DNA of 7,803 nt from contig CALVUU010000015.1 of assembly GCA_944363655.1 (NCBI GenBank), positions 1-7,803 on the forward strand, given 5' to 3'. Of the stretch, positions 1 through 7,803 are shown in pieces. The notes under the pieces were generated by a model, which was given only the letters and a program-made list of their open reading frames with translations, did not search any database and was not told the DNA's origin. Both the position numbers and the translations under genes were made by a program. Position 1 is the first letter of the stretch. Every line of letters starts with the position of its first letter. The stretch comes from an uncultured Bacilli bacterium. GTDB taxonomy: Bacteria; Bacillota_I; Bacilli_A; RF39; UBA660.

Positions 1-576
1 ACAAGTACAATAGCAGGATATAGATGGAATTATGATACAAGTGTAAGTACGTATGGATCAAATAACTGGACAACAAGTGAATTTAATACAATAAATCTAA
101 ATACCAATTATTGGAATTATTTAGGTACAACATGGCAAAACTTAATAGCAGAAACAACGTGGCATCTAGGAGGAATGACATCAAGTAGTAATACAGCAAA
201 AGCATTTTATGATGGAGAAAGAAATAATGTAGGATATGGAAGTAATCCAACAACATATACAGATGAAATAGGATTAATGTATCCAAGTGATTATGGATAT
301 ACAGCAAATCCGGATGCGTGGACAACAAATTTAAGTTCATATAACAATTCAACAATAACAGCAAATAACTGGATGTATATGGGAGCAACTGAATGGACAA
401 TTACTCCGCGTTCGTCGAACGGTTACTACGTGTTTCGTGTGAGCAACAGCGGCTACTTGCACAACTACAGCGCTGACCGCGGGTATGCCGCTAGACCTGT
501 CTTTTATCTAGAATCTAATGTAGAACTTAGCGGAGGAACAGGAACTTCAAGTGATCCATATCGCCTTGCGGTGTGA
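1..576 (+). CDS. DGR target-like surface protein, C-terminal fragment
   Basis: Frame 1 is open from the left edge to TGA at 574-576, giving the last 191 residues of a protein whose start lies outside. The fragment is rich in Thr, Ser, Asn, Tyr and Trp, has no Cys, and looks extracellular. It contains IGLMYPSDYGY (residues 90-100), WTITPRSS (132-139), ARPVFYL (164-170) and a Gly/Thr/Ser-rich tail ending DPYRLAV. From memory this order (LMYPSDYGY, then WT-x-(S/T)P, a variable stretch, then (V/A)RPV-x-YL and a GTxxxPY tail) resembles C-type-lectin or DUF6273-like domains at the C-terminus of bacterial surface proteins, several of which are DGR targets. Residues about 135-168 fall in a GC-rich island with C-ending codons, unlike the A-ending codons before it (aca, ata, gca, gga). 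The role is probably ligand binding at the cell surface; the ligand is unknown. The family is moderately supported; the partial status is certain. Confidence 0.8.
   Translation, partial: TSTIAGYRWNYDTSVSTYGSNNWTTSEFNTINLNTNYWNYLGTTWQNLIAETTWHLGGMTSSSNTAKAFYDGERNNVGYGSNPTTYTDEIGLMYPSDYGYTANPDAWTTNLSSYNNSTITANNWMYMGATEWTITPRSSNGYYVFRVSNSGYLHNYSADRGYAARPVFYLESNVELSGGTGTSSDPYRLAV
401..505 (+). other. Putative DGR variable region (VR)
   Basis: Boundaries are approximate. In DGRs a reverse transcriptase copies a template repeat (TR) with errors at adenines and the cDNA replaces the VR in the target gene, usually at the C-terminus of a C-type-lectin-fold protein. Here G+C jumps to 56 of 100 bases (401-500) inside an AT-rich gene. 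Of the 21 codons from 418 to 480, 14 end in C: aac, tac, agc, ggc, cac, gac and cgc, all reachable from AAC by changing only the two adenines. The other seven (ggt, gtg, ttt, cgt, gtg, ttg, gct) contain no A and would be the invariant TR positions. The 3' part (about 481-505, encoding GYAARPVFY) would correspond to the fixed side where mutagenic homing starts. The TR is not in the window, so the assignment rests on composition, codon pattern and position in the protein. Confidence 0.72.
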
Positions 577-586
577 GAACATTTAA

Positions 587-620
587 GCCTCCGCCGGCGG
601 CTCTCAATCCGCCCGGAGGC
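587..620 (+). repeat. GC-rich hairpin downstream of the putative VR
   Basis: GCCTCCG (587-593) pairs with CGGAGGC (614-620), and after a two-base bulge (CC, 594-595) GGCGG (596-600) pairs with CCGCC (609-613), leaving the loop CTCTCAAT. This gives 12 base pairs, nearly all G:C, in otherwise AT-rich DNA, starting 10 bases after the stop codon of the target gene. It has no T-run after it (the following bases are cgcgagttat), so it is a poor intrinsic terminator. A DNA hairpin or cruciform just downstream of the VR is known to assist homing in the Bordetella phage DGR; this element sits in a similar place, though about 80 bases from the presumed VR end. A transcript 3'-end structure is the alternative. 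Confidence 0.7.
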
Positions 621-679
621 CGCGAGTTATCAACAAAAAACAAAGTTAACTAAATGTAAATAAGAAAGAGAGATAAAAT

Positions 680-1360
680 ATGGAAAAAGTAAATAGAATA
701 TTATGGGGATTAGTTTTTATAGTATTAGGGGTTGTTGTAGCCCTTAATGCATTAGATATTATTGATTTTAATATCTTCTTTAATGGATGGTGGACATTAC
801 TTATAATAATTCCATGTTTCATTGGTTTATTTGATACAACCAATGAAAGTAGGATTGGTAATATTATTGGTCTTATTATTGGTATAGTTTTACTACTATT
901 ATGTAATGGATGGATAAGATTTGATTTAATATTCAAATTATTCGTTCCAGCAATATTAGTATTTATTGGAATCTATTTAATATTTGGTAATATGTTTAGA
1001 AGTAAAATTACTGAAAAGATCCACGAAACTAAGAGTAAAAGTGATAGTGAATCTATTTGTGCAACATTTTCTGAACAATTTGTTGTTAAAAATGACGAGG
1101 AGTTTAAAAATGCTAACTTAGATGCTATATTTGGTAGTGTAGTGCTTGATTTAACTAATGCTAAAATTAAAAATGAGGCTGTGATTACTGCTAGTGCCAT
1201 TTTCGGAGGCATTGATATAATCGTTCCTAAAGATGTGGAAGTAAAAGTTAAATCCACTCCAATATTTGGTGGTGTAAGTAATAAGAGTAAAACTAAGGAT
1301 GCTAAAAAAGTGATTTATGTTGATGCTCTTGCCTTATTTGGGAGTGTAGATATCAAATGA
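680..1360 (+). CDS. LiaF-like membrane protein
   Basis: This is a 226-residue protein. Residues 1-104 hold about four hydrophobic segments (near 8-25, 36-52, 57-76 and 83-104), matching the LiaI/LiaF-type (DUF5668-like) membrane region. Residues about 125-226 are a soluble, beta-rich domain with repeated FG turns: FGSVVLDL (151-158), FGGIDIIVP (175-183), FGGVSN (197-202) and FGSVDIK at the C-terminus. These are typical of the LiaF C-terminal domain. LiaF proteins modulate LiaRS-type two-component systems that respond to cell-wall antibiotics in Bacillota. No histidine kinase or response regulator is next to it here. The start codon follows a purine-rich stretch (663-673), a weak ribosome binding site. 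It overlaps the next gene by the four bases ATGA, so the two are one operon. I see no convincing promoter between 621 and 679. Confidence 0.85.
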   Translation: MEKVNRILWGLVFIVLGVVVALNALDIIDFNIFFNGWWTLLIIIPCFIGLFDTTNESRIGNIIGLIIGIVLLLLCNGWIRFDLIFKLFVPAILVFIGIYLIFGNMFRSKITEKIHETKSKSDSESICATFSEQFVVKNDEEFKNANLDAIFGSVVLDLTNAKIKNEAVITASAIFGGIDIIVPKDVEVKVKSTPIFGGVSNKSKTKDAKKVIYVDALALFGSVDIK

Positions 1361-2136
1361 GTGGGGTTCAAAAAGGAATAAAAATTGCTGCAATTGTTCT
1401 AGCAATCTTTATTATATGTATAATCATTAATGCAATTTTAGCACTTGTTGGTTCATTTGCCTATGCTGAAGGAGATATAACTTTTTTAGAAAGTTATAAA
1501 GATATTTCTAATATTGAAATTGATTTAAATACAACTAACCTAGAAATAAAAAAAGGTGTGGAATTTAAAGTTGAAGCAAGTAATGTAACTGATAAATTTC
1601 ATGTAAGAAAAAGACATAATACTTTATATATTGAAGAAGATAGTTTTTGGTTATTTGGTAATAATAACGCAGGTAAGGTAATTGTTTATGTTCCTGAATA
1701 TTTAAATGAATTAAATATTGATACTGGAGCAGGAGAAACTTCTATTGATTCTATAAGTGCTAAAGAATTCACTTTAGATTATGGTGCTGGTGTAATAAAT
1801 ATTAATAATTCTGAATTTTCTAATGCTGAAATTGATGGGGGAACTGGTACTATAAATATAAATAATACTATTTTAACTAATAGTGAAATAGATACTGGAG
1901 TAGGTGAAGTAAATATTAATGGACAACTACTAGGTAGAAGCAGTATAAATTCTGGCATTGGTAAGTTAAATATAAATTTAACTGGTGGAGAATCATTATA
2001 TGAACTTCGTCTTGATAAAGGTATTGGTAGCATTACATTAAATGGCTTAGATTATGATAAATCTAGTTATGGTAATGGTATAAATATTATAAATATCGAT
2101 GGTGGTATTGGTGAAATTGATATCAACTTTTCTTAA
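1357..2136 (+). CDS. DUF4097-type beta-repeat membrane-anchored protein
   Basis: This is a 259-residue protein. An N-terminal hydrophobic segment (about 9-32) would anchor it, with the remainder outside the cell. From residue 121 it consists of repeats of the form (I/L)(D/N)xGxGxxxI(N/D)I. They start at 121, 140, 159, 178, 197, 219 and 247, with a period of exactly 19 for the first five. This is the signature of DUF4097/GIN-type putative adhesin domains, which fold as beta-helices. Such proteins often sit beside LiaF- or PspC-like genes and are tied to envelope stress. Its ATG overlaps the stop of the LiaF-like gene (ATGA, 1357-1360), and the nearest Shine-Dalgarno-like GGAG (1341-1344) is 12 bases away, so translational coupling is likely. 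Its 3' end overlaps the convergent gene by 14 bases. Molecular function is not established. Confidence 0.82.
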   Translation: MSGVQKGIKIAAIVLAIFIICIIINAILALVGSFAYAEGDITFLESYKDISNIEIDLNTTNLEIKKGVEFKVEASNVTDKFHVRKRHNTLYIEEDSFWLFGNNNAGKVIVYVPEYLNELNIDTGAGETSIDSISAKEFTLDYGAGVININNSEFSNAEIDGGTGTININNTILTNSEIDTGVGEVNINGQLLGRSSINSGIGKLNINLTGGESLYELRLDKGIGSITLNGLDYDKSSYGNGINIINIDGGIGEIDINFS

Positions 2137-2491
2137 GATTATTTAATTCTTTTTCTATTTTACTAATAGCATCGATTAAGAAATCAACTTCATATCTTTG
2201 AGTTTGATTACTTCTTCCTTGCTCATTATCTGTAAACGGCCCTCCGCCGTTTTTGTGTTTCTGTGAGTTAGTATTTAAATTGTTATTTTCCAGTCTTGCT
2301 TCAATTAATTGTTGTTGTGCAGCATGAGTAAGTATGTATTGTCCTACTAAAATTAACCAGTTACCAATAGAATTCTGTTCATTTGCATTATAATCGCCTA
2401 CACAAGCAAAACCAACGGTAACAGCAAGTACCGCAAATAAATGGGGATCAGTATTCGGAGGAAAATTAGTATTATGAAAATTTCTATCCAT
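2123..2491 (-). CDS. Small hypothetical protein, 122 residues
   Basis: I do not recognise a named family. The start is well supported: AAGGAG (complement of 2499-2504) sits seven bases before the ATG. Residues 18-55 form one hydrophobic stretch broken by a polar motif, GDYNANEQNSIGNW (32-45), followed by QYILTHAAQQQLIEAR. The middle (66-100) is Asn/Gln/Gly-rich and probably disordered, and residues 101-121 look helical or coiled-coil (FLIDAISKIEKELNNLKK). I have a weak memory of similar uncharacterised Bacillota proteins with a GDxxxNEQNxxGNW motif, but cannot assign a role; a spore or envelope protein is a guess from the neighbourhood. It is convergent with the DUF4097 gene (14-base overlap) and divergent from the SleB-like gene, sharing a short intergenic region. 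No clear promoter of its own was found. Confidence 0.7.
   Translation of the reverse strand: MDRNFHNTNFPPNTDPHLFAVLAVTVGFACVGDYNANEQNSIGNWLILVGQYILTHAAQQQLIEARLENNNLNTNSQKHKNGGGPFTDNEQGRSNQTQRYEVDFLIDAISKIEKELNNLKKS
2234..2254 (+). terminator. Candidate terminator inside an antisense gene
   Basis: On the plus strand AAACGGC (2234-2240), loop CCTCC and GCCGTTT (2246-2252) form a perfect 7-bp stem that runs into five T residues (2250-2254). It lies about 100 bases beyond the stop of the LiaF-like/DUF4097 operon and would end that transcript, though it sits within the coding sequence of the convergent gene (its Asn-Gly-Gly-Gly-Pro-Phe codons). The T-tract is short and partly in the stem, so strength is uncertain. 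Confidence 0.45.
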
Positions 2492-2523
2492 AGACTTGCT
2501 CCTTAGTAAATCTTATTCAAATA

Positions 2524-2552
2524 TTTACTAATCATTAAAATTATGATAAAAT
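2524..2552 (+). promoter_or_regulatory. Promoter of the SleB-like/YdcF operon
   Basis: TTTACT (2524-2529), a 17-base spacer and TAAAAT (2547-2552), with TG at 2544-2545 making an extended -10 (TGATAAAAT). The expected transcript start is about 15 bases before the ribosome binding site at 2565. This resembles a vegetative sigma-A type promoter rather than a sporulation promoter. Confidence 0.5.
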
Positions 2553-2564
2553 ACTCACTTGTTT

Positions 2565-2570
2565 GGGGGA
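2565..2570 (+). promoter_or_regulatory. Ribosome binding site that fixes the start at 2577
   Basis: GGGGGA lies six bases before ATG 2577. The frame is also open from TTG 2559 and ATG 2571, but the first is upstream of this site and the second directly abuts it, so 2577 is the best start. Confidence 0.7.
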
Positions 2571-2576
2571 ATGTAT

Positions 2577-3290
2577 ATGGATATTACAAAATTATTAAAA
2601 TATTTTAAAGACAAAGGATTTAAAAAAGCAACTTGCATTAGTTTAACAATACTTATGTTAATTAATACAAAATATTCAGTCGCAACATATAATGCTAATG
2701 CTAAAAGCCTAAGTAAAGATAATGATAAAACAATATCAGATATCGTAACTTATAAAGAAAAATCTATTCAAACAAGTAATATTACTAATGAAGAAAAAAT
2801 AAATATAATTTTAGAAAGAGAAAATTTAACTAAGGAAGAATTTGCTGAAATAGTTGCAACTGTCATTGGTGAAGCGGCTCCAGATAGTTATACTGATGCT
2901 TATGCTGTAATAAATACTTTTTATAATCGAAAACTTAGTGAAAAATGGATTAATGAAGTATTAAAAATAACGGGTATTGATAATGGAGACAATTTATACG
3001 CCCAAATAACTTTAAAAAATCAATCTTCCGTTTATTCTAGTGGTTTATATAAAGAATTTTTAGGAATAACCGATGTTCCCGCTTACCAAGCGGTAATTGA
3101 TTTTCTGTACTCTTTAGAAAGTATGCATGATTATTTATGTTTTTATGCTAGTTTTGGAAGTAAAGAAAATAAAGAACAATTTGTTGATGGTGGAAATCTT
3201 TATTACTCACTCCTTACATCAGAAGATCGCAAAGATACAATGGTTTTAGTAAGAACCAATAAGGAGAAACATGAAACTAACCGATATTAA
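2577..3290 (+). CDS. SleB-like cell-wall hydrolase
   Basis: This is a 237-residue protein. A hydrophobic segment at about 19-31 after a basic N-terminus suggests export or anchoring; a low-complexity linker (40-80) follows. Residues about 88-195 match the Hydrolase_2 (SleB/CwlJ) pattern: EIVATVIGEAAPDSYTDAYA (91-110, with Glu99 at the catalytic glutamate position), then VINTFYNR, then AQITLKNQSSVYSSGLYKEF (142-161), PAYQAVIDFL (168-177), and MHDYLCFY (183-190) in place of the usual MHNYLxF. The family degrades peptidoglycan, classically spore cortex during germination, though vegetative members exist. The long N-terminal linker is consistent with a wall-facing enzyme. The gene overlaps the next one by 20 bases, implying cotranscription. 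Family assignment is good; a spore role is inference, helped by a spoVIF-like gene in the same window. Confidence 0.78.
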   Translation: MDITKLLKYFKDKGFKKATCISLTILMLINTKYSVATYNANAKSLSKDNDKTISDIVTYKEKSIQTSNITNEEKINIILERENLTKEEFAEIVATVIGEAAPDSYTDAYAVINTFYNRKLSEKWINEVLKITGIDNGDNLYAQITLKNQSSVYSSGLYKEFLGITDVPAYQAVIDFLYSLESMHDYLCFYASFGSKENKEQFVDGGNLYYSLLTSEDRKDTMVLVRTNKEKHETNRY

Positions 3291-3912
3291 ATATAAAAAT
3301 ATTTTATTAGATTTAACAGATGAAGATATTAGTAAAATAGTATTTCAAAATAATGTTATAGAAAGTCCTAGTGATATTGGTATTATCCTCGGAGGACCAA
3401 GACTATATAAAAGAGCTGCAGCAGCCCTTACCTTATATCAGAAAGGATTAATAAAAAAAATAATAGTCTCCGGTGGTATTGGTTACCTAAATTATGATAA
3501 AAATAATCCAAAAGCCTTTTTAATGCGTGATTATTTATTAAACGCAGGAGTCTCTAAAGAAGATATAATTGCTGAACCAATTTCTAAAACAACAACAGAA
3601 AATATTTATAATTCATTAGCTATTTTAGATGGTGTATATGATTTAGATAAAACAAGTTTTACCATTGTTACATCTGATTTTCATTTAAAAAGAAGTATGG
3701 CAATACTTGCTAAATTATTAAAAAAGAATGTTCAAGGCTTTGGTATAGAAGATGGCATTATTGATTCAAAAAATTGGTCAAATACTTTAATGGGAAGAAT
3801 TCAAGTATTAAAAGAAGCAATACTTTTAATAAATTATGCGAAAAATAACCAAATAGAAGATTTAGAAGTAAGTGATTTAAGTTTAAAAAGAGTTAAGAAT
3901 TTGCATTTTTAA
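3271..3912 (+). CDS. YdcF/DUF218 family protein
   Basis: This is a 213-residue protein. It has the DUF218 motifs in order: GIILGG (37-42), VSGG (66-69), FLMRDYLLNAGV with ISKTTTENIYNS (83-115), and TSDFHLKRS (134-142). The Rossmann-like fold of this family includes E. coli YdcF, which binds S-adenosylmethionine, and SanA/ElyC proteins linked to envelope barrier function; the reaction is not known for most members. No signal peptide or membrane segment is visible, so this version is probably cytoplasmic. AAGGAG (3261-3266) lies four bases before the ATG, inside the 3' end of the SleB-like gene, which it overlaps by 20 bases. Its last codons contain the -35 element of the engB promoter. Confidence 0.85.
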   Translation: MKLTDIKYKNILLDLTDEDISKIVFQNNVIESPSDIGIILGGPRLYKRAAAALTLYQKGLIKKIIVSGGIGYLNYDKNNPKAFLMRDYLLNAGVSKEDIIAEPISKTTTENIYNSLAILDGVYDLDKTSFTIVTSDFHLKRSMAILAKLLKKNVQGFGIEDGIIDSKNWSNTLMGRIQVLKEAILLINYAKNNQIEDLEVSDLSLKRVKNLHF

Positions 3913-3929
3913 AACATTTACTATATAAT
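3901..3929 (+). promoter_or_regulatory. Promoter for engB operon
   Basis: TTGCAT (3901-3906), a spacer of exactly 17 bases and a perfect TATAAT (3924-3929). The -35 element lies in the end of the upstream coding sequence. Transcription would start near 3936, right at the ribosome binding site, leaving a leader of only about ten bases before ATG 3946. Confidence 0.6.
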
Positions 3930-3935
3930 TGAATT

Positions 3936-3940
3936 GGTGA
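3936..3940 (+). promoter_or_regulatory. Ribosome binding site that fixes the engB start at 3946
   Basis: GGTGA lies five bases before ATG 3946. In-frame TTG 3934, GTG 3937 and ATG 3940 are upstream of or overlap this site, so 3946 is preferred. Confidence 0.55.
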
Positions 3941-3945
3941 TGAAT

Positions 3946-4527
3946 ATGCAAATTGATAATGTTTTAGAACCAATTATTGCTGTAAGGCAAAGTCAATATC
4001 CAACAGATAACTTACCTGAATTTTTATTAGTAGGGCGCAGCAATGTTGGAAAAAGTAGTTTTATTAATACATTAATTGAAAGAAAAAATTTTGCTCGTAC
4101 TTCTTCAAAACCAGGAAAAACGCAAACTTTAAATTTTTATTTAGTTAATAATAAATTTTATTTAGTTGATGTTCCTGGTTATGGATATGCTAGTGTAAGT
4201 AAAGATAAACAAAAGAAGTTTGGTCTTATGATTGAAGAATATTTAAAGAGTAGAACTAATCTTAAACATGTTTTTTTGCTTATCGATTATAGGCATAAAC
4301 CGACAGAAGATGATGTATTGATGTATGAATTTTTAAAGTACTATAATTTAGATATTACAATTGTTGCTACTAAATATGATAAAATAAGTAAAAATAATCG
4401 ACTTAAACAAGATAAATTAATAAAAGATACTTTAAAAATTAGTGAAAGTGATAATTTTATTACATTTTCAACTGTAACTAAAAAAGGAAGAGCAGAAGTA
4501 TTAGAAATATTAGAAAGTAGGTTATAG
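3946..4527 (+). CDS. engB: Ribosome biogenesis GTP-binding protein EngB (YsxC/YihA)
   Basis: The 193 residues are the usual length for the family. EngB is an essential GTPase for late assembly of the large ribosomal subunit. The GTP-binding motifs are complete: P-loop GRSNVGKSS (30-38), the switch I region PGKTQTLNF (56-64) with the conserved Thr, DVPGYGYA (75-82), TKYDK (142-146) and a G5-like FSTVTKKG (174-181). These are characteristic of EngB rather than Der or Era. It is the first gene of a run with a prepilin-like gene (one-base gap) and der. A second ribosome-assembly GTPase two genes downstream suggests joint expression from the promoter at 3901-3929. The start is chosen by the GGTGA site at 3936-3940; an upstream ATG at 3940 would add two residues. 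Confidence 0.97.
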   Translation: MQIDNVLEPIIAVRQSQYPTDNLPEFLLVGRSNVGKSSFINTLIERKNFARTSSKPGKTQTLNFYLVNNKFYLVDVPGYGYASVSKDKQKKFGLMIEEYLKSRTNLKHVFLLIDYRHKPTEDDVLMYEFLKYYNLDITIVATKYDKISKNNRLKQDKLIKDTLKISESDNFITFSTVTKKGRAEVLEILESRL

Positions 4528-4528
4528 T

Positions 4529-4963
4529 ATGGAAAATAAAAAGGGTTTTTCATTAGTAGAAATATTAGCAGTTATTGTAATATTAGCAATTATAATTGGC
4601 ATTGCCTTTGTTAGTGGCAATGCCATAAGACAAAGATCTTTAGAAAGAATTGTTAATACTAAAATAGAACAAATAGAACAAGCGGCGATACTTTATGGTC
4701 AAGATAATCCCCAAATACTTACGGATACTTGTCAAGTTGATGGTGTAGATTATGATTACTGTAAAGTAGTAACGGTAAGAGAATTAATTGAATCGGATGG
4801 CAATTATTTTACAAGTGAAACTACCATTACTGATGAATCAGGTAAACATATTGATTTAATCAATGATGTTACTGGAAAAAGTATGCTTGATGATACTGTT
4901 CAAATATATCGTCGTAATAATCGTGTTTATTCAATAATGTTAGAAGTTAGTAGTAATAATTAA
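4529..4963 (+). CDS. Type IV prepilin-like (pseudopilin) protein
   Basis: This is a 144-residue protein. The N-terminus MENKKG-FSLVE matches the class III prepilin signal: cleavage and N-methylation would occur between Gly6 and Phe7, and Glu11 is the conserved Glu5 of the mature pilin. A hydrophobic helix (about 8-29) follows, continuing as an amphipathic helix to about residue 55 (YGQDN, 56-60). The globular part has two Cys (68 and 78) that could form a disulfide. Family members build type IV pili, type II secretion pseudopili or competence pseudopili and need a PilD/ComC peptidase, which is not in the window. The gene sits alone among two ribosome GTPases, one base after engB and 11 bases before der, with only a weak GTAGG (4516-4520) as ribosome binding site. 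It could be an orphan minor pilin. Confidence 0.85.
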   Translation: MENKKGFSLVEILAVIVILAIIIGIAFVSGNAIRQRSLERIVNTKIEQIEQAAILYGQDNPQILTDTCQVDGVDYDYCKVVTVRELIESDGNYFTSETTITDESGKHIDLINDVTGKSMLDDTVQIYRRNNRVYSIMLEVSSNN

Positions 4964-4974
4964 GGGGGTGTATT

Positions 4975-6279
4975 ATGCAAACTATATGTTTGATAGGAAA
5001 ACCAAATGTCGGAAAAAGTAGTATTTTTAATAGACTTATTAAAGAAAAAAAAGCTATTATTATGGATACTCCAGGTATTACTAGAGATCGTATTTATGGT
5101 ATTGTAAATTATAACGATAAAAGATTTTCTTTAATAGATACTGGAGGAATTAGTCTAGGTAATGATGATTTTGATAAAGATATTATAGCTCAAGCTGAAC
5201 TAGCTATTGATGAAGCGGATTTAATTTTATTTGTAGTTGATGGCATACAAGATATTGATGCAACAGATATTTATATTAAAAATAAGTTACATAAAGCAAA
5301 TAAAAAAGTAATAGTTGTTGTAAATAAATTAGATAATAGTAAAAGACTAGATAATTTATATAATTATTATGAATTAGGTTTTAGTGAAGTAATCGGGGTT
5401 AGTGCAGAACATAATATTGGTTTTGATAAATTACTTGATGTTATTTGTAAGGATATTTCCAATGAAGAAGTAATAGAAGATAATACTTTAAAATTTTGTA
5501 TTATAGGAAGACCAAATGTTGGTAAGAGTAGTTTAATTAATGCTTTACTAAATACAGATAGAGCCATAGTAAGTGATATTGCTGGTACTACAAGAGATGC
5601 CATAGATACTAAATTTAAATATAATCATGAAGAATTTACCGTAATAGATACGGCAGGAATGCGTAAAAAAGGTCGTATTTATGAAAGCGTAGAAAAATAT
5701 AGTTTAATTCGTAGTCTAAAAGCAATAGAGCGAAGCGATGTTTGTGTTTTGGTTCTTGATGCTAAAACAGGTATCATTGAACATGATAAACATATCCTAT
5801 CTTATGCTATTGAATCCGGCAAGGGGATAGTTATTGCTGTAAATAAATGGGATACAGTTAAAAATCCGGATAGGGCTATTAAAGAATGGAAAGAATTAAT
5901 AAAATATGAATTTCAATTTGTACCATATGCTAAAGTTGTATTTTTAAGTGCTTTAAATAAAAAAAGAATTAATACTTTAATGCCTGAAGTAATAAGTGCT
6001 TATGAAAACAATAAAAAAGAAGTAAAAACATCTATTTTAAATAATATTATTATGGAATCTGTTAGTATCCATATTCCTCCATCATATAAGGGAAAACGTT
6101 TAAAAATATATTTTGTTAGTCAAACAGATAGTAAACCTCCAAAGTTCACTTTCCAAGTTAATGATAAAAAGTTAGTTCATTTTAGTTATGAAAGATATCT
6201 AGAAAATCAATTAAGAGAAAACATAGATTTAACAGGTACTCCAATAATATTACAATTTAAAAATAAGGGCGATGAATAA
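4975..6279 (+). CDS. der: Ribosome-associated GTPase Der (EngA)
   Basis: The 434 residues are full length for the family. Der has two tandem GTPase domains and a KH-like C-terminal domain and acts in 50S subunit maturation. Domain 1: GKPNVGKSS (8-16), DTPGITRD (31-38), DTGG (55-58), NKLD (117-120), and VSAEHNIG (142-149). Domain 2: GRPNVGKSS (178-186), AGTTRDAID (203-211), DTAGMRKKGR (225-234), NKWD (290-293), and LSALNKKR (324-331). The KH-like domain covers about 350-434 and includes the conserved PPKFTFQVN region. AAGGGGGTG (4962-4970) is the ribosome binding site, four bases before the ATG. Its final codons form the left arm of the terminator at 6262-6290. It is the last gene of the engB operon. 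Confidence 0.98.
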   Translation: MQTICLIGKPNVGKSSIFNRLIKEKKAIIMDTPGITRDRIYGIVNYNDKRFSLIDTGGISLGNDDFDKDIIAQAELAIDEADLILFVVDGIQDIDATDIYIKNKLHKANKKVIVVVNKLDNSKRLDNLYNYYELGFSEVIGVSAEHNIGFDKLLDVICKDISNEEVIEDNTLKFCIIGRPNVGKSSLINALLNTDRAIVSDIAGTTRDAIDTKFKYNHEEFTVIDTAGMRKKGRIYESVEKYSLIRSLKAIERSDVCVLVLDAKTGIIEHDKHILSYAIESGKGIVIAVNKWDTVKNPDRAIKEWKELIKYEFQFVPYAKVVFLSALNKKRINTLMPEVISAYENNKKEVKTSILNNIIMESVSIHIPPSYKGKRLKIYFVSQTDSKPPKFTFQVNDKKLVHFSYERYLENQLRENIDLTGTPIILQFKNKGDE

Positions 6280-6290
6280 TCGCCCTTATT
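6262..6290. terminator. Bidirectional terminator between der and the convergent gene
   Basis: AATAAGGGCGAT (6262-6273) pairs perfectly with ATCGCCCTTATT (6279-6290) around a five-base loop GAATA. The plus strand continues in T residues after the stem (TTATTTTCT), and the minus strand also leaves the stem in a T-rich stretch (TTATTTTTAA), so it can stop transcription both ways. The der stop codon (6277-6279) and that of the minus-strand gene (6286-6288) both lie inside the hairpin. Confidence 0.88.
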
Positions 6291-7074
6291 TTCTAATTCT
6301 TCTTACTTCTTCTAAAATTGCTGTTTGTAAAGGTATATCATAATAATCTAACATTTGATTATTTAATTTTTTAAAATCTTTACTAGATATAATAAAACTA
6401 CAATTAGGATAAAACTTATTCCAAATATTATAATCTATTTTATTATTATTGGCTAAATCTAAAACTAAATTATTATCACCATCTATTACTACTGAGTGTT
6501 CAATAAATCCTTTAAATGCCAAAGGCACATAGTAGTAGGCGCCATAATAATTTCCATCTGTTTGGTTTAAAAAATCACTAGTAACATCATGACAAAGACC
6601 TCTTCTATTTTTATTTTCTATATCTGTTATCTGATTAGTTATTTTTATTCTTCCATAATTTGTATCTAATAAAAAATCATTATCTATTTTGGTAATACTT
6701 TGAATAGATAACAAACCTTTAGCTAAATAGTTAAATAATTTTATATAATAATCCCCAGTTTGTAATTGATCAATATACTGAGATAGTACTAATAATTCTT
6801 GGGTATAATTATAATGATATTTATCAAGTATTTCTTTAACTATCTTTAATTTTTTTACATCATTTCTAAATCTTAAACAAGCAATATATAAACTTAAACT
6901 ATCATGAATATCAAATGGAAATAAATATGATGAAATAGGTAAAAGTGCAATAACATCTTCTGTAATTTCATCATTTTTAAAAACATTATATCTCTGACGT
7001 AATCTATAATCTTCAATTAATTCTTTATAAGAATGTTTATTTAAAACTTCTTTTATTTCTTCAAAACTAAACAT
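6286..7074 (-). CDS. Hypothetical protein with possible Cys-His-Asp centre
   Basis: This is a 262-residue protein with no family I can name. No signal peptide or membrane segment is visible, so it is probably cytoplasmic. The N-terminal half (1-125) looks helical. The C-terminal half carries GLCHDVTSDFL (159-169, Cys161), then FIEHSVVIDGDNNLVLDLAN (190-209, His193 and Asp206). This Cys, then His after about 30 residues, then Asp 13 further on is the layout of papain- and transglutaminase-like folds, so a cysteine peptidase or transglutaminase-like enzyme is possible, but only as a hypothesis. GAGGTGA (complement of 7078-7084) lies three to four bases before the ATG, and a consensus promoter lies at 7094-7121. 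It is divergent from the spoVIF-like gene and shares a terminator with der. Confidence 0.75.
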   Translation of the reverse strand: MFSFEEIKEVLNKHSYKELIEDYRLRQRYNVFKNDEITEDVIALLPISSYLFPFDIHDSLSLYIACLRFRNDVKKLKIVKEILDKYHYNYTQELLVLSQYIDQLQTGDYYIKLFNYLAKGLLSIQSITKIDNDFLLDTNYGRIKITNQITDIENKNRRGLCHDVTSDFLNQTDGNYYGAYYYVPLAFKGFIEHSVVIDGDNNLVLDLANNNKIDYNIWNKFYPNCSFIISSKDFKKLNNQMLDYYDIPLQTAILEEVRRIRK

Positions 7075-7093
7075 GTTTCACCTCGAGAAAAGT

Positions 7094-7121
7094 ATTATAC
7101 CATGTATTTAATAATTGTCAA
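7094..7121 (-). promoter_or_regulatory. Consensus sigma-A promoter for the minus-strand gene
   Basis: Reading the minus strand, TTGACA (complement of 7116-7121) is followed by a 16-base spacer and TATAAT (complement of 7094-7099). Both hexamers are perfect, and the promoter lies just upstream of the ribosome binding site of the minus-strand hypothetical gene. This implies strong vegetative expression. Confidence 0.82.
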
Positions 7122-7143
7122 ATAAGCATATACCCATATTTAG

Positions 7144-7152
7144 CATATAATA
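7144..7152 (+). promoter_or_regulatory. Possible -10 region of the spoVIF-like gene
   Basis: CATATAATA contains TATAAT (7146-7151) but also fits the CATAnnnTA form of late sporulation (sigma-K type) -10 elements and is close to the sigma-E form. No good -35 for any of these was found at the right distance, so the sigma factor cannot be decided. Confidence 0.4.
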
Positions 7153-7167
7153 TTTTAGAGGTGAAAC

Positions 7168-7410
7168 ATGAAATTTGGAGATGATTTTTTCAAAAAAGTT
7201 GAAAAAAAGACTAAAGTAGATAAAAATACTATTATATCTCTTGCCCAAAAATTACAAAATGGTAATATGAAAGATGAAGGAACATTAAGAGAGGTAATTG
7301 ATACCCTAAGTCAAATGACTGGTAAAAAAGTAACTGAGGAACAAAAAGAAAAAATAATTAGTAAAATAGTAGATGATAAAGTTCCCCAAGATGTAGATAA
7401 AATGTTTTAA
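7168..7410 (+). CDS. spoVIF: Stage VI sporulation protein F-like (SpoVIF)
   Basis: The 80 residues are close to the usual size of SpoVIF (B. subtilis YjcC), a small protein needed for correct spore coat assembly. The order FFKKVEKKTKVDKNTIISLA (7-26), the LQNGNMKDEGTLREVIDTLS helix (28-47), and TGKKVTEEQKEKIISKIVDD (51-70) matches my memory of the family: a helical domain with a KTGV-like start, NxxDExTxRxxI in the middle and an INxIxxD-type end. It is soluble with no Cys. GAGGTGA (7158-7164) precedes the ATG. A terminator follows, so the gene is monocistronic. It is the best evidence that this organism sporulates. Confidence 0.8.
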   Translation: MKFGDDFFKKVEKKTKVDKNTIISLAQKLQNGNMKDEGTLREVIDTLSQMTGKKVTEEQKEKIISKIVDDKVPQDVDKMF

Positions 7411-7438
7411 TAAGTTTGCTTAAAGTTAATTTTTAATT

Positions 7439-7562: not shown

Positions 7563-7803
7563 ATGAAAGATAAAAAGAATTTAACTCTACTTTTAGTTGG
7601 GGGTATTACCCTTATTATAGTAACACTTGGTGCAACATATGCATTCTTTCAAAATCAAGGTAGTGGTAGTGGACGTATTGATACAAGTGTTATAACTGGT
7701 ACAACAGATCTATTATCATTTAGTTTTGGTGATTTAATAAATATCCATGCAACAGAAGAAAACTTTGGTAAAAATATGGGAGATTTATCAGATAGTACAA
7801 CAG
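7563..7803 (+). CDS. Secreted protein with SipW-type signal sequence, N-terminal fragment
   Basis: The frame is open from ATG 7563 to the right edge, giving the first 80 residues. The N-terminus is MKDKKN followed by a hydrophobic stretch (7-29) ending LGATYAFF, the form of SipW-dependent signal peptides in TasA/camelysin-type proteins, where cleavage falls near the A-T-Y-A-F-F end. After it come Gly/Ser/Thr-rich residues, VITGTTDLLSFSFGDLINIH (43-62) and ATEENFGKNMG, which suggest an extracellular beta-rich protein. AAAGGA (7547-7552) is the likely ribosome binding site; it is ten bases from ATG 7563 and four from an in-frame ATG at 7557 that would add two residues, so the start could be either. 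From memory, proteins with this N-terminus are multi-copy in uncultured gut Bacilli and some end in domains like that at the left edge of this window; this is not shown here. Confidence 0.8.
   Translation, partial: MKDKKNLTLLLVGGITLIIVTLGATYAFFQNQGSGSGRIDTSVITGTTDLLSFSFGDLINIHATEENFGKNMGDLSDSTT

Follow-up and report, generated by a model that had tools for sequence, protein, structure and literature searches.

Why should a gene that is poor in G and C end in a short island rich in both, one where codon after codon ends in C? The question is raised by the left edge of a 7,803-nt stretch of DNA from an uncultured Bacilli bacterium (hereafter the window), where the 3' part of a gene on the forward strand occupies positions 1-576, its start lying outside the window and its frame open at the 5' edge. 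The anomaly pointed out in a sequence-only reading is real. G or C is found at 56 of the 100 bases from 401 to 500, as against 27.4% in the window as a whole, and C-ending codons make up 14 of the 21 codons at 418-480 but only 5 of the 133 upstream of the island in the same gene. That reading took 401-505 to be the variable region (VR) of a diversity-generating retroelement (DGR). The evidence given below supports the idea, with the limits corrected to 402-495 by the template of a relative, and I consider it highly probable that this segment is the variable region of a DGR.

The relatives were found through the window protein encoded at 4975-6276, which I take to be Der. It led to 80 MAG loci, the closest at 93% identity (L001, from an uncultured Bacilli MAG, genome G001), to which the window aligns over 1-3205 and 3892-7416. 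The sequence-only reading called for a search for a near-repeat of the island beside a DGR-type reverse transcriptase (RT), with mismatches confined to template adenines. Such a repeat, 94 bases long, does exist in the genomes of relatives. Aligned without gaps to the template repeat (TR) of G004:C41, the VR on the forward strand of the window (402-495) differs at 17 of the 36 template A's and at 2 of the 58 other bases. In the frame of the target and after the first residue, the template reads NPNSSNSNNVFNVNNNGNLNNNNANNGYAAR, while the VR protein at this locus in the window is TPRSSNGYYVFRVSNSGYLHNYSADRGYAAR. The last 15 positions of the VR (481-495, forward strand) are identical to the template and are presumably an IMH-like start of homing; the 26 codons and stop that follow (496-576) form a constant tail outside the TR/VR homology.

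The template also sorts out the codon pattern. All 14 of the C-ending codons had been thought to derive from AAC. Thirteen do face AAC or AAT in the G004 template, and the exception, GGC at 451, is GGC in the template as well. The codons interleaved with them had been taken for an A-free scaffold, which does not hold at GGT 421 (template AGT) or CGT 436 (template AAT), both of them variable. Variation also affects ACT at 403 and CGT at 409, which precede the 418-480 stretch over which the count had been made. There are 16 AAC/AAT codons in the template, 13 of them changed in the window, and because of these codons many residues can be changed with little risk of creating a stop; the diversity accessible from the G004 template is computed at about 6e20 proteins. 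The abrupt change of composition might instead suggest that horizontal transfer brought in GC-rich DNA from a foreign source. However, the island matches a template of only 43% G+C, change of A to N accounts for the rise to 56%, and both the frame of the gene and its syntenic flanks continue across the island in three species. Transfer can be given a negligible probability.

If the adenines of a template govern the variation, then the same locus in different species should vary at the same positions. The VR protein of the syntenic orthologue is NPYSSSSNFVFRVHLSGSLSGHNAFYGYAAR in G001 and TPDSSDSYSVFIVSNSGLLGSSYAVNGFAAR in G004. Between the members of this trio (three species), pairwise differences amount to 22, 21 and 23 of the 36 A positions and to 2, 1 and 3 of the 58 others (p = 4e-10, 2e-10 and 7e-10 for A-specificity); the locus varies at the adenines and scarcely elsewhere. 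When five VRs are compared, 33 of the 36 A columns vary and 6 of the 58 others. Could ordinary diversifying selection, or recombination amongst paralogues, have done this with no reverse transcription? The family is large, each of 21 relatives having between 11 and 47 homologues of the 191-aa part of the target, and paralogues do share blocks of about 0.9 kb. But the changes follow the A bases of a distant noncoding repeat, which are invisible to selection, and the contrast of 33/36 with 6/58 variable columns also speaks against it. I regard this explanation as very improbable.

It is less easy to dispose of the view that the region is a fossil, once the target of a DGR whose machinery has been lost from this lineage, and now evolving as any other DNA. 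The RT and the TR are known from relatives alone, and no TR matching the window was found in G001, which has targets of the window's type but whose detected TRs (C32 and C3) fit the window worse than does that of G004. Moreover, VRs that carry the adenine signature but lack the hairpin described below show 10-20 non-A mismatches, as decayed VRs might. Yet species are more alike at the non-A positions of the VR (1-3 of 58 differ) than in the flank: 47/401 on the 5' side and 13/145 on the other between the window and G004, 31/401 and 7/145 between the window and G001. This is what overwriting by a conserved template is expected to produce. The VR of the window is also open, its hairpin is kept, and the two non-A bases at which it departs from the G004 template are found again at this locus in G001, its closest relative. 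Since the two differences are common to both genomes, the window's own template probably carries them, with C at 426 and T at 474. A fossil is thus unlikely, and an operating DGR remains the preferred account, one that presumably acts on this VR today, with an RT and TR that would lie elsewhere in the window's own genome.

What the machinery may look like can be judged from G004:C41 (L173), where a target is followed by a MutS-I-like ORF, an Avd-like ORF, and the RT, and then by the AAC-rich TR and a second target. The first target differs from the TR by 15 A and no non-A changes, the second by 16 A and 5 non-A changes. MutS-like proteins are known accessories of DGRs, and GxxxSQ marks the RTs of DGRs; the cassette RT contains IGNxxSQ and YMDD. 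The RT (RVT_1, E=1e-18) and the MutS-I-like ORF (MutS_I, E=3.5e-7) score above the Pfam cut-offs, while the Avd-like ORF matches NF033474 (E=8e-12; 45.4 of 80 bits, below the NCBIfam cut-off), PHROG 3206 (E=6e-12), and Pfam Avd (31.9 of 40 bits, below its cut-off). A DGR-type RT stands beside a TR in G001:C32 as well, and the two templates of G001 (C32 and C3) are other than that of G004:C41. RVT_1 is matched in 19 of the 21 relative genomes, and a sample of 193 genomes of the family includes 48 with an Avd-like match, in many cases a weak one. Genes for an SNF2-type helicase and an AAA_21 ATPase adjoin the G004 cassette (L173:6076-10614), and ORFs that look similar by eye lie beside the G001 cassette (L172:2989-9392).

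In the window itself, none of the 9 ORFs scanned of its 12 main ones matches an RT family, and no TR appears amongst the largest 20 of its 57 direct-repeat families. The gene, with no RT in view, is therefore probably a remote target. I propose that a cassette such as those of the relatives, with MutS-I-like and Avd-like proteins, a DGR-type RT, and an adjoining TR, would serve it in trans. The RT would copy template RNA and misread adenines, and the mutated cDNA would replace the VR, beginning at the conserved 3' end and aided by a hairpin that follows the stop codon.

How many targets might be served in this way? An A-specific signature (p<1e-3, against the best of 14 TRs picked by alignment score, many of them from other species) is found in 14 of 22 homologues in G001, 13 of 21 in G004 and 10 of 30 in G007, counts that mixed strains or foreign contigs could inflate, the relatives being draft MAGs of unstated completeness and contamination. 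The homologues tested were 22 of 23 in G001 (a fragment was dropped), 21 of 23 in G004 (a fragment and the TR itself were dropped) and, in G007, the 30 listed of 42. The upstream parts of the same genes, used as controls, give 0/20, 0/20 and 0/26. A stricter cut, which adds a limit of 20% on non-A change, leaves 12, 7 and 8 signature genes in G001, G004 and G007. The p values were weaker in a previous round that used a different alignment and test, and in a further comparison two loci matched the TR itself and not a VR. The draft genomes are small (about 1.3, 1.1 and 1.0 Mb for G001, G004 and G007), and the signature genes are spread over 13 contigs in G001 (14 genes) and 12 in G004 (13 genes). 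Only genes with the signature are counted as targets. The count could not be taken over all homologues of the domain, since G018 and G019, with 47 and 41 of them, have no RVT_1 match. The dispersion suggests that the cassettes act in trans.

Two pairs of targets are alike over about 0.9 kb, comprising domain, VR, and hairpin. One pair is at L171:4891-5797 and L304:12937-13843, the other at L177:11454-12346 and 18588-19480; the two genes of a pair belong to a single genome, their DNA is 97-99% identical over the block, and the VR protein sequence is the same. The blocks may reflect duplication or conversion of a module.

The island is not the only GC-rich segment at this end of the window. G+C reaches 53% at 551-650, beyond the end of the gene, because of a hairpin at 587-620 (forward strand), with an outer stem of 587-593/614-620 and an inner stem of 596-600/609-613. 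It lies 91 nt from the VR and folds better than 197 of 200 shuffled sequences. Comparison with Rfam gave no match at the gathering score. In G001 and G004 taken together, a hairpin follows 18 of 27 signature genes but none of 16 others. It comes in two versions, I in 14 genes whose best match is to type-I templates and II in 4 genes that match type-II templates, with no exceptions. Signature genes are not told apart from the rest by how strong their inverted repeats are (p=0.19); the G+C content downstream of the stop does distinguish them (p=2.7e-4). Over 30 aligned copies, 99.7% of cells pair, though the pattern by which these copies were selected required the greater part of the outer stem, so that only the inner stem is independent evidence. 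Two inner pairs are changed on both sides in three sequences, which may go back to one inherited event, and 51 of 500 shuffles reach as many. Genes without the hairpin have 10-20 non-A mismatches and those with it 0-15, but most of the former were compared to a TR of another genome or subtype. The hairpin is presumably a cis element that helps homing. Apart from any target gene, a target tail with a copy of the hairpin, preceded by a palindrome, is found at L306:5350-5472 (G004:C8).

What is it that varies? The syntenic orthologue in L001 is an open frame of 541 codons with a hydrophobic stretch near its N-terminus. DUF6273 (PF19789) is matched by the window's part of the target at 11.6 of 23.5 bits, under the Pfam cut-off, by a G004 target at 19.7 bits, and by a distant target (L378) at 38.1, above the cut-off. 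The target protein has no sequence match in PDB at E up to 1 and no relative on viral contigs. A confident structure model was obtained for the domain, which likely has a lectin-like (C-type lectin) fold, and the VR residues would be exposed at the surface and bind ligands. I know of no link between the IgA peptidase of Thomasclavelia ramosa and a DGR. The N-terminal region of that peptidase (PDB 9qa6) is 19% identical to the target. At the other end of the window, the last, truncated gene (7563-7803) contains a short motif that also occurs towards the N-terminus of the orthologue of the target (15/35 identical, E 1e-6, one pair) and may belong to the same family.

Much of this resembles known DGRs. 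Bordetella phage BPP-1 shows change at template A's near the 3' end of the target, an RT with an accessory protein, and a hairpin downstream of the VR, a structure needed for efficient homing (PMC3240598). In the phage DGRs compared in that paper the hairpin is 4-34 bp from the VR rather than 91 nt, and the relatives examined here differ from BPP-1 in their many dispersed targets and their MutS-I-like protein. A single RT and TR with targets scattered through the genome is found in Treponema denticola, but where the DGR of an isolate is complete the targets number 2 to 7 (PMC4891356), against 14/22 and 13/21 homologues with the signature here, and several cassettes and templates. Closer in number is Thiohalocapsa PB-PSB1, which has several loci (nine, with 15 targets, 21 VRs and links to conflict systems) and some targets apparently served in trans (PMC10907252); a similar number is reached here in drafts of 1.1-1.3 Mb, and the one orthologue read has a membrane-type N-terminus. 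Cyanobacteria likewise have dispersed CLec paralogues, of which 121 of 219 in 21 genomes were judged to be DGR-diversified, but for the most part their targets are predicted to be kinases of the cytosol or other proteins of signalling (PMC7517822).

The templates themselves may be subject to interruption. An element of 3.5 kb, presumably RIT-like and carrying three genes for recombinases (each with PF00589), splits the TR at the same place in G013:C17 (L177:14339-17817) and G007:C43 (L291, about 4970-8460), and in G008:C33 (L331:10994-11119) a type-II-like template has a terminal piece of it at the equivalent point. Relatives of the element at 42-44% protein identity sit in AAC-rich, template-like DNA at both junctions in G299:C20 (L347, about 4530-7900) and G412:C8 (L378, about 7540-10900). 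G521:C4 (L379, about 7027-8480) retains the 5' half of a template and one recombinase ORF, and G186:C8 (L380, about 1-3440) is less clear, with one junction, beside an Avd-like gene. Elements thus lie inside DGR TRs at the corresponding place in all 7 copies with a readable junction, one of them weak. A scan of one side for AAC-rich DNA, covering 22 of 43 homologues listed, gives 5.0-6.0 in G007, G412 and G299; G521 and G186, whose template contexts became apparent by eye when more of the surroundings was inspected, score 2.5, no higher than the 1.5-4.0 of distant homologues. A further 16 homologues are more remote, at no more than 36% identity; 14 of these could be scored on the one side scanned, and none reaches 5. 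The element is possibly a parasite of DGRs or a switch. One contig, G014:C61, consists of little but the element, and in G412:C8 another three recombinase-like ORFs in a row, judged by eye, lie between the TR and the DGR accessory genes (L378:4142-7116).

A wider view, plausible but short of probable, is that these small-genome Bacilli maintain a genome-wide, trans-acting receptor repertoire. Each template type would have a small cassette, or a few of them, and some dozen genes in scattered positions would be rewritten in this way; the template-specific hairpin after the stop would be the address label of a target; and one lineage of three-recombinase elements, with DGR TRs as its insertion site, might silence the repertoire and, on excision, restore it. 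In the open-licence PMC literature, no DGR paper on such Bacilli was found among the matches listed, nor any among them that joins RIT terms to DGRs. The kind of DGR is known; new to me, within the literature searched, are the density of targets in small genomes, the hairpins matched to template type, and the recombinase elements inside templates. Uncultured Bacilli of small genome with dense, dispersed targets are added to the known carriers of DGRs. Their orthologues and paralogues, with matched templates, offer natural replicates for learning what directs the choice of remote targets, and in the hairpin there is a candidate address signal that can be tested. If the recombinase elements truly aim at templates, then control of a DGR by insertion would become testable too.
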